Source of the DNA: SAR202 cluster bacterium
GTDB taxonomy: Bacteria > Chloroflexota > Dehalococcoidia > Lucifugimonadales > Lucifugimonadaceae
Assembly: GCA_016872495.1 (NCBI GenBank)
Contig: VGZT01000020.1
Coordinates: 1 to 39,316 of the forward strand
Reading direction: 5' to 3'
DNA length: 39,316 bases
Shown here: positions 16,775 to 18,922 of the stretch, one piece after another
How positions within the stretch are numbered: the stretch's first letter is position 1
Layout: each line of letters opens with the position of its first letter
The notes under the pieces: model-generated
Database searches by the model: none
Told to the model about the DNA's origin: nothing
Seen by the model: only the letters and a program-made list of their open reading frames with translations
Program-made: the position numbers and the translations under genes

Positions 16775-17239
16775 CTACATCCGCGCCTTGATGAACCGAA
16801 GGACCTCGAGAGGGTCCATGCGTCCCAGCTGGGTGGAGGCGTAGAGCGAGGCCGCAATCTCACCGGTGGGTCTGAGCACGAATTCGGCGGGCTGCATGTA
16901 ACCGCGGCCCTGTCGTTCGCCTTTCCAGGCGCCGAGGGCCGCGCTGACCTCCGGCCCCACACTGTGGGCGACCGGGAAAGAGATCCCGTGCTGCGAGGCG
17001 GTCGAGCCTGTGTCACCTTCGCCGTCGGCGTTGGCGGCGACCACCTTGATGCCGAGTTCGTTGAACTGGGGCATCGCCGTTTCCACCTCGGCTAACTGCC
17101 GAGTACAGTACGGTCACCACCCTCCCCGGTAGAAGAGGACATAAGCCCAGAAGCCTGCTACGTCGCGCGGCAGGGCAATCGCCTTGCCTGCGGACACGGG
17201 AAGCCTTATGTCGGGGAATCGGTTTCCAGGTAGAAGCAT
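16775..17239 (-). CDS. Peroxiredoxin-like (AhpC/TSA) protein with in-frame TGA at the peroxidatic cysteine: candidate selenoprotein
   Basis: Starting at ATG 17239, with GAGGA eight bases upstream, one frame gives MLLPGNRFPDIRLPVSAG, then VLFYRGGW. A TGA follows at 17116-17114, then PYCTRQLAEVETAMPQFNEL without any frame change to a TAG at 16775. Cys homologues read R-G-G-W-C-P-Y-C, so TGA sits exactly at the peroxidatic cysteine, codon 42; the resolving-type Cys45 is kept. Length would be 154 residues, normal for this thioredoxin-fold family, and the C-terminal half (YMQPAEFVLRPTGEIAASLY, then LEVLRFIKARM) is intact. A SECIS-like hairpin follows the TGA. The likely role is thiol-dependent peroxide reduction. 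No selA/B/C/D is in the window, so selenocysteine is inferred. A point mutation creating a pseudogene is the alternative. Confidence 0.8.
17077..17113 (-). promoter_or_regulatory. Candidate bacterial SECIS element directly after the in-frame TGA
   Basis: Reading the minus strand from the TGA, CTCGGC (17103-17098) pairs perfectly with GCCGAG (17092-17087) around the five-base loop AGTTA. CCGT (17113-17110), right after the TGA, can pair with ACGG (17080-17077) as a lower helix across an internal loop. Sixteen bases separate TGA from the apical loop, and G is the second loop base. Bacterial SECIS elements lie in the coding region just downstream of UGA, about 16-37 bases to the loop, usually with G among the first two loop bases. 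The fit was made by eye; no folding energy was computed. Confidence 0.65.
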
Positions 17240-17323
17240 GGAAGTTGTCCTCGCACAAGGGGCCATTATGCATCCACGAGACCGCACCGCCGTGTGGCGG
17301 GAGGGCGTCCGAGGAGTCGAGTT

Positions 17324-18922
17324 ATGAGCAGCGTGATCGAACAGGGCCTGGCCACCCTTGACCGGAACAGGACGGTCGAGCGGATCTGGAAGGCCGACCA
17401 CACCGTGTGGAAGCCGGACCCCGCCGGGCTTGTCGATCGGCTTGGATGGCTGACCATCGACGCCCGGATGGCAAAAGAAGCCGCCTCCCTGGAACGGTTC
17501 GGGGAGCAGGCGCGCGCCGGCGGGCTCAGGCACGTGGTACTCCTGGGCATGGGCGGCAGCAGCCTTGGCGCAGAAGTCATCGGCCAGGTGTTCGGCCCGG
17601 CAAGGAACGCGCGCCCGGAGCTCCTTGTCCTCGACTCGACGGTTCCCGCCGCGATCGCGGCCGTGCGGCAGGCGATCGACCCCGGCAAGACGATCTTCCT
17701 TGTGTCGTCGAAGTCCGGCGGAACCATCGATACCAAGTTCCTCTACTCCTACTTCCGCAGCGAGACGGAGGCCGCGATCGGCAATGCCGACGCCGGGAAA
17801 CGCTTCGTCGCCATTACCGATTCGGGAACCTCGCTCGAGCGCCTGGCTAGCGAAGCGGGATTCCGGAGAGCTTTCGGGAACGACCCAAGCATCGGCGGGC
17901 GCTATTCCGTACTCAGCTACTTCGGGCTGGTGCCGGCCGCGCTGCTTGGGATCGACCTGACCCGCCTCTTAGGGCGTGCGCAGGCGTGCAGGGAGTCCTG
18001 CGCCGCGGGGATCCCTCTGCGCGACAACCCGGGCGCGTCGCTCGGCGCGGCGATAGGGGCCTGGGCGGCGGCGGGTCGTAACAAGCTCTCGCTGATCACT
18101 TCGCCACGCCTCGCGAGCATGGGGACCTGGATCGAGCAGCTGGTGGCGGAGAGCACCGGCAAGGAGGGCAGGGGCGTCATACCGGTAGCAGGCGAACCCA
18201 TTGGTCCTCCTGCCTGGTACTCCGACGACCGGCTTTTCGTGTACATGCGCCTGGCGGGCGACGGCGTTCCGGCGGACGAGGCGAAGGTCACTGCGCTGGA
18301 GAAGGCCGGTCACCCGGTCCTCCGGACCGAGCTGAGGGATGCCTTCGACCTGGGCGCCGAGTTCTATCGGTGGGAGTACGCGATCGCGGTCGCGGGCTCC
18401 ATGCTCAAGATCAATCCCTTCGACCAGCCCGATGTCCAGTCTGCAAAGGACCAGACGGACCGCGTGCTGGGGGCGTACGCCAGGGCCGGGGTTCTTCCGG
18501 CGAGGCCCGCCAGCCTGACACCGGCCGCCCTGGTCCAGCTGGCAAAGCCAGGCGGCTACCTGGCGATCACGGCGTTCATGCGCCAGACCGCCGAGACGGA
18601 CCGTTTGATCGCAGTCCTGCGACGCCGGATCATGGAGCGCCATCGGATAGCGACAACGCTTGGCTACGGCCCCCGTTTCCTGCACTCCACCGGGCAGTTG
18701 CACAAGGGCGGACCGGCCGGCGGGCTCTTCCTGCAGCTAACGGCGAAGCATAACGAGGACCTACCGATACCGGGCATGAACTACACGTTCGGTACATTTG
18801 CTGACGCGCAGTCGCTCGGCGATCACCAGGCCCTGGTCGCGGGCAAGCGCCAGGTGGCGTGGTTCGACCTTGGTGGAAGCCCTGCGAAGAAGCTTGAAGA
18901 ACTTGCCTCGACCATCGCCTGA
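17324..18922 (+). CDS. pgi: Phosphoglucose isomerase-like protein (SIS fold, type usually fused to transaldolase)
   Basis: The protein has 532 residues from ATG 17324, with GAGGAG seven bases upstream; a start at 17294 lacks such a site. Sugar-isomerase motifs are VVLLGMGGSSLGAEVI, then FLVSSKSGGTIDTKF. GTWIEQLVAESTGKEGRGVI provides the likely catalytic glutamate region, and KINPFDQPDVQSAKDQTD is the region of the substrate lysine/histidine loop. These match the Pgi half of bifunctional transaldolase/Pgi proteins better than classical glucose-6-phosphate isomerase. No transaldolase domain is present on either side. It would interconvert glucose 6-phosphate and fructose 6-phosphate. It is divergent from the candidate selenoprotein with 84 bp between starts. 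Confidence 0.85.
   Translation: MSSVIEQGLATLDRNRTVERIWKADHTVWKPDPAGLVDRLGWLTIDARMAKEAASLERFGEQARAGGLRHVVLLGMGGSSLGAEVIGQVFGPARNARPELLVLDSTVPAAIAAVRQAIDPGKTIFLVSSKSGGTIDTKFLYSYFRSETEAAIGNADAGKRFVAITDSGTSLERLASEAGFRRAFGNDPSIGGRYSVLSYFGLVPAALLGIDLTRLLGRAQACRESCAAGIPLRDNPGASLGAAIGAWAAAGRNKLSLITSPRLASMGTWIEQLVAESTGKEGRGVIPVAGEPIGPPAWYSDDRLFVYMRLAGDGVPADEAKVTALEKAGHPVLRTELRDAFDLGAEFYRWEYAIAVAGSMLKINPFDQPDVQSAKDQTDRVLGAYARAGVLPARPASLTPAALVQLAKPGGYLAITAFMRQTAETDRLIAVLRRRIMERHRIATTLGYGPRFLHSTGQLHKGGPAGGLFLQLTAKHNEDLPIPGMNYTFGTFADAQSLGDHQALVAGKRQVAWFDLGGSPAKKLEELASTIA

Follow-up and report, generated by a model that had tools for sequence, protein, structure and literature searches.

Peroxiredoxin-like (Prx-like) selenoproteins with a UxxC active site have been on record since 2005. 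A Prx-like UXXC protein from the Sargasso Sea was described by Zhang et al. (2005; PMC1088965), who distinguished such UXXC (Prx-like) proteins from true selenocysteine (Sec) peroxiredoxins, which carry TXXU. The family reappeared as 'Prx-like 1' (pfam00578, UxxC) in the 2008 GOS study by Zhang, Gladyshev and colleagues (PMC2398784), and a 2026 review lists it as 'Prx-like thiol:disulfide oxidoreductase' (PF00578, UxxC; PMC13188914). The reports of 2005 and 2008 concern marine metagenomes, in agreement with an earlier note on the DNA analyzed here, made from the sequence alone, which had stated that U-x-x-C Prx-like selenoproteins occur there. Since the family has been reported twice and reviewed, the gene described below belongs to a known kind: it is a member of the Prx-like UxxC family and not a new kind of selenoprotein.

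The window, i.e. the whole stretch of DNA analyzed, comprises 39,316 nucleotides of a SAR202 cluster bacterium (Chloroflexota). Its reverse strand carries a complete open reading frame (17239-16775) of 154 codons plus TAG, encoding a protein with an AhpC/TSA (Prx-like) fold. The frame is open from ATG to TAG if its only TGA (17116-17114) is translated as Sec. A Shine-Dalgarno-like GAGGA (17252-17248, same strand) is located 8 nt before the ATG. Translation yields the active site RGGWUPYC, in which Sec42 takes the first position of UxxC and Cys45 (TGT, 17107-17105) the second. This is the layout that the earlier note had proposed, with a good ribosome site, a single interruption and WUPYC in place of a cysteine motif. 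The Pfam AhpC-TSA domain (PF00578) spans the TGA (residues 4-130, E 4e-21, 75.5 bits vs a cut-off of 26), and an NCBIfam search of the window protein returned no model above cut-off. The protein starts with MLLPGNRFPDI, without an obvious leader. When readthrough is disregarded, what remains is an initial segment of 41 codons and a frame of 103 aa opening with GTG (16775-17086); a 139-aa frame is also present at 17114-17533. Both the truncated and the upstream frame that had been predicted for standard annotation are thus found, and such annotation would miss or truncate the Prx-like Sec gene.

The source assembly (2.34 Mb, 98% complete) contains matches to selA (441 bits), selB (345 bits, full length) and selD (377 bits, its own frame including one TGA), as well as one tRNA-Sec identified with ARAGORN (70 bits, anticodon TCA). 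The check for these four genes had been suggested earlier, and it removes the objection that the decoding machinery might be absent. Likewise, selB scores above cut-off in all four genomes of the nearest named relatives introduced below. RF2 is also present in the source genome, and TGA terminates 5 of the 15 long open reading frames of the window, indicating that UGA is not reassigned genome-wide: it is a stop codon in general and would be read as Sec by context. It is extremely improbable that reassignment or near-cognate readthrough of UGA inserts a different amino acid here, either Trp (as in code 4) or Cys. No specific point speaks in favor of this alternative, and it is opposed by the presence of RF2 and the use of TGA as a stop, by the use of TGG for Trp in the same protein, by the complete Sec machinery with its UCA tRNA-Sec, and by the homologues, in which the TGA aligns with Cys and the hairpin described below is conserved.

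All genomes used for comparison are assemblies, mostly metagenome-assembled genomes (MAGs). The TGA occurs at the identical codon in the four nearest named relatives (L028-L031, from Chloroflexi and Dehalococcoidia assemblies; 79, 65, 53 and 51% identity), in two further sequences of the same family (L064 and L065; 61 and 49% identity) and in others. The search for the same TGA in related genomes, proposed in the earlier note, thus finds it in six relatives of 79-49% identity. More distant homologues have either TGA or TGT/TGC at the Sec codon, and alignment to the Cys homologues places the TGA on their cysteine. The window gene and L028 differ chiefly in third codon positions, both before and after the TGA, with dN/dS values of 0.26/2.9 in the part preceding it and 0.13/1.1 in the part following it; the ratio of about 0.1 is rough, as dS is near saturation. 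This pattern indicates that purifying selection is acting on both sides of the TGA and excludes decay after a nonsense mutation, the decay in relatives that had been named as a possible counterargument. That the sequence derives from a MAG and that the family does include Cys homologues would fit a Cys gene in which a nonsense mutation or a miscalled base created the TGA. This reading, however, has to contend with independent assemblies sharing the TGA at the exact codon, diverged relatives included, with purifying selection on either side, with a covarying hairpin downstream and with a frame free of any other lesion; we give it next to no credence.

On a phylogeny of 45 homologues, six changes of the Sec label are required, at least four of which are forced by well-supported branches, compared with 14.7 for shuffled labels. 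The window gene is placed in an all-Sec clade of seven (support 100/99). The tree and codon states point to repeated Sec/Cys exchange in the family; one Ser and one Tyr form retain the second Cys. The Ser form is part of a tandem pair of Prx-like copies (L070; G594:C43:47922-48368 and 48459-48905), one with TGA (Sec) and one with TCA (Ser), which may serve as a natural test of the purpose of Sec. Two other homologues are unusual. One (L073; G498:C6:5217-5618, forward strand) combines TGA at the Sec codon with an extra in-frame TAG and is possibly a frameshifted or decaying copy. The other, a distant homologue in a Bacillota MAG (L033, 3001-3450; RGWW[U]PKEQ), has TGA without the second Cys. 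In a tblastn search of plasmids, none of the matches listed exceeded 40% identity, and a scan of viral contigs found no relative of the window gene.

Directly downstream of the TGA lies a SECIS-like hairpin (17087-17103, reverse strand). Its 6-bp stem (CTCGGC, 17103-17098; GCCGAG, 17092-17087) encloses the loop AGTTA (17097-17093), with an invariant G at 17096, and corresponds to nucleotides 14-30 when the T of TGA is taken as 1. The hairpin is the minimum free energy (MFE) structure. Folding of a 27-nt piece gave -11.0 kcal/mol (z -3.6, matched by none of 200 shuffles) and of a 40-nt piece -15.4 kcal/mol (z -2.5). Among recodings of the window gene that preserve the protein and sample codons according to window usage, 0.6% form all six pairs; in the same type of analysis, the stability of the hairpin of L031 is not unusual for its protein sequence. 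Covariation was evaluated in 16 distinct TGA homologues, aligned without gaps (stem columns 14-19/25-30). Paired cells amount to 91.7%, double-sided changes number 17, and the outermost pair is broken in 4 of the 16. The covariation score of 0.453 (vs 0.14 for shuffled data) is reached by none of 500 shuffles, which ignore relatedness; slid versions of the stem score at most 0.18. Stem variants include CCCGGC/GCCGGG in L030, GCGTC/GACGC in L031 and GCCGGC/GCCGGC in L046, next to CTCGGC/GCCGAG of the window. The loop G is invariant among TGA homologues, and Cys homologues in the same register form 0-4 of the six pairs. The loop codons follow the same trend: five of the seven nearest sequences retain TTA for the Leu, although this codon accounts for just 5 of the 550 Leu codons of window genes, and the Gln codon is CAG in 22/24 TGA homologues vs 6/12 others, a count that is supportive only, the sequences being related. 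In the Ser paralogue of the tandem pair (L070_2), a synonymous Gln change has replaced the loop G by A, as expected once a SECIS element is no longer needed. The earlier proposal of a 6-bp stem with the loop-G geometry of bacterial SECIS elements is hence borne out by fold, covariation and the invariant G. It had also included a possible lower helix, CCGT (17113-17110) with ACGG (17080-17077), spanning 17077-17113. This helix forms in the window sequence; as a conserved part of the element it was rejected, being missing from the homologue consensus and different in L028.

Complete machinery, a conserved TGA and a covarying SECIS-like hairpin together support the earlier view that this organism decodes UGA as Sec at this position, and the in-frame stop is almost certainly read as selenocysteine in a small redox enzyme; no other explanation accounts for the observations. 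As the best explanation, to which we assign a probability of roughly 95%, the UGA at codon 42 would be decoded as Sec via SelB and the hairpin, giving a Prx-like UxxC protein that most likely has thioredoxin-type chemistry. SelB and Sec-tRNA would decode the codon under the direction of the hairpin immediately downstream, whose distance from the UGA to the loop and whose loop G resemble those of bacterial SECIS elements. The predicted product is a 154-residue peroxiredoxin-like enzyme of thioredoxin fold with the active site U-P-Y-C. The Sec42 selenolate would attack a disulfide or peroxide, Cys45 would resolve the intermediate as a selenenylsulfide, and a thioredoxin-like donor would re-reduce the enzyme. 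Catalytic roles and substrate are inferred here.

On one point the earlier note was mistaken, namely that the TGA replaces the peroxidatic cysteine. In HMMER alignments with PrxQ/Bcp and 1-Cys peroxiredoxin, Sec42 is aligned with the Thr of PxxxTxxC, three residues from the proposed position, and Cys45 with the peroxidatic Cys; a peroxidatic Sec42 was accordingly rejected. The PxxxTxxC/U motif of true peroxiredoxins is not found in the window protein, in which P and T are absent (RGGWU) and Sec occupies the T position. In an alignment with ResA, Sec42 lies on the first Cys of CxxC. An AF2 model (pLDDT 83) matches Bcp4 best (3hjp, TM 0.88), followed by PrxQ (5iph, TM 0.79), ResA and AhpC; as the matches span all four, the chemistry cannot be deduced from the fold. 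The protein might alternatively be a true peroxiredoxin with an inserted Sec, in which Cys45 attacks peroxide and Sec42 is resolving or activating. The alignment of both residues favors such an enzyme, as does the identity of the best structural matches. The natural Ser (L070_2, TCA) and Tyr (L075, TAC) variants at position 42, which retain their second Cys, point the same way. The missing PxxxT argues against it, however, as does the distant Sec homologue L033, which lacks a second Cys. Moreover, Sec is the usual attacking nucleophile in UxxC proteins. We consider a Cys45-first peroxidase possible, albeit unlikely. A dual peroxidase/thiol-disulfide enzyme, with the roles of Sec42 and Cys45 swapped relative to both parents (Cys45 at the peroxidatic site of peroxiredoxins, Sec42 at the nucleophile site of thioredoxins) and each residue able to start catalysis, is a doubtful proposition. 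Among relatives, residue 42 is variously Sec, Cys, Ser or Tyr, and Cys45 is retained. Thioredoxin-like UxxC chemistry with Sec as the nucleophile is the most likely mode of action.

The source genome, searched family by family, contains further probable selenoprotein genes. A candidate true Sec peroxiredoxin (L085; G000:C15:27518-27898, forward strand) has the TxxU motif HPACFTGG[U]. Two candidate UxxC Prx-like genes encode FYRAWW[U]TSC (L088; G000:C13:14165-14527) and FYRGFF[U]GIC (L089/L080; G000:C16:20977-21327). A TlpA/AhpC-like frame with WASW[U]AC (UxC) resembles the published UGC-type family (L091; G000:C6:4904-5251, reverse strand). One in-frame TGA in a Sec-type context is present both in the formate dehydrogenase alpha subunit gene fdhA (CSRTUHAP; L096; G000:C1:89447-91468, forward strand) and in selD (L023; G000:C38:5060-5983, forward strand). 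A further gene encodes a thioredoxin-NHL protein that is putatively a Sec version of SOQ1/NHLRC2 (L094/L099; G000:C26:26564-28063, reverse strand), with TGA at residue 46 of P0002 and WTYC[U]INCMH vs CCINC in SOQ1/NHLRC2. Among 30 homologues of this protein inspected, 13 have TGA, each followed by a 7-bp hairpin (type CTTCCGC-RGTT-GCGGAAG) that begins about 22 nt downstream; the other 17 carry TGC/TGT and lack it. The 2026 review (PMC13188914) yielded no match for NHL or NHLRC2, and a literature search found no paper describing a Sec form of SOQ1/NHLRC2, which apparently represents an undescribed selenoprotein family. The source genome probably contains about eight selenoprotein genes, and the Prx-like gene marks it as selenoprotein-rich.

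Compared with known systems, the window protein shares with Sec peroxiredoxins (PxxxTxxU) the AhpC/TSA fold and a Sec in the active-site loop, whereas their Sec lies at the peroxidatic position, three residues further on. ResA/TlpA proteins (e.g. 4nmu, 3c71) are its best PDB sequence matches, and their CxxC aligns with UxxC; ResA itself acts in heme maturation outside the cytoplasm, anchored in the membrane, whereas the window protein has no obvious leader. PrxQ/Bcp proteins agree with it in fold and in having the peroxidatic position at Cys45, but differ in possessing PxxxT, which the window protein lacks, with Sec at the place of the Thr. General features of bacterial selenoproteins are present, i.e. 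conserved UGA/Cys exchange, Sec machinery and a downstream hairpin with a loop G. Like published Prx-like UxxC proteins, against which it was set by description, it is a small stand-alone protein with PF00578 above cut-off, UxxC in place of PxxxTxxU, a SECIS element after the UGA and CxxC Cys homologues. In contrast to them, it has a Chloroflexota host and belongs to a subfamily with F-Y-R-G-x-W-U-x-x-C and the loop CAGTT(A/G). The gene thereby adds to the Prx-like UxxC selenoproteins a well-supported Chloroflexota branch with clear SECIS covariation.
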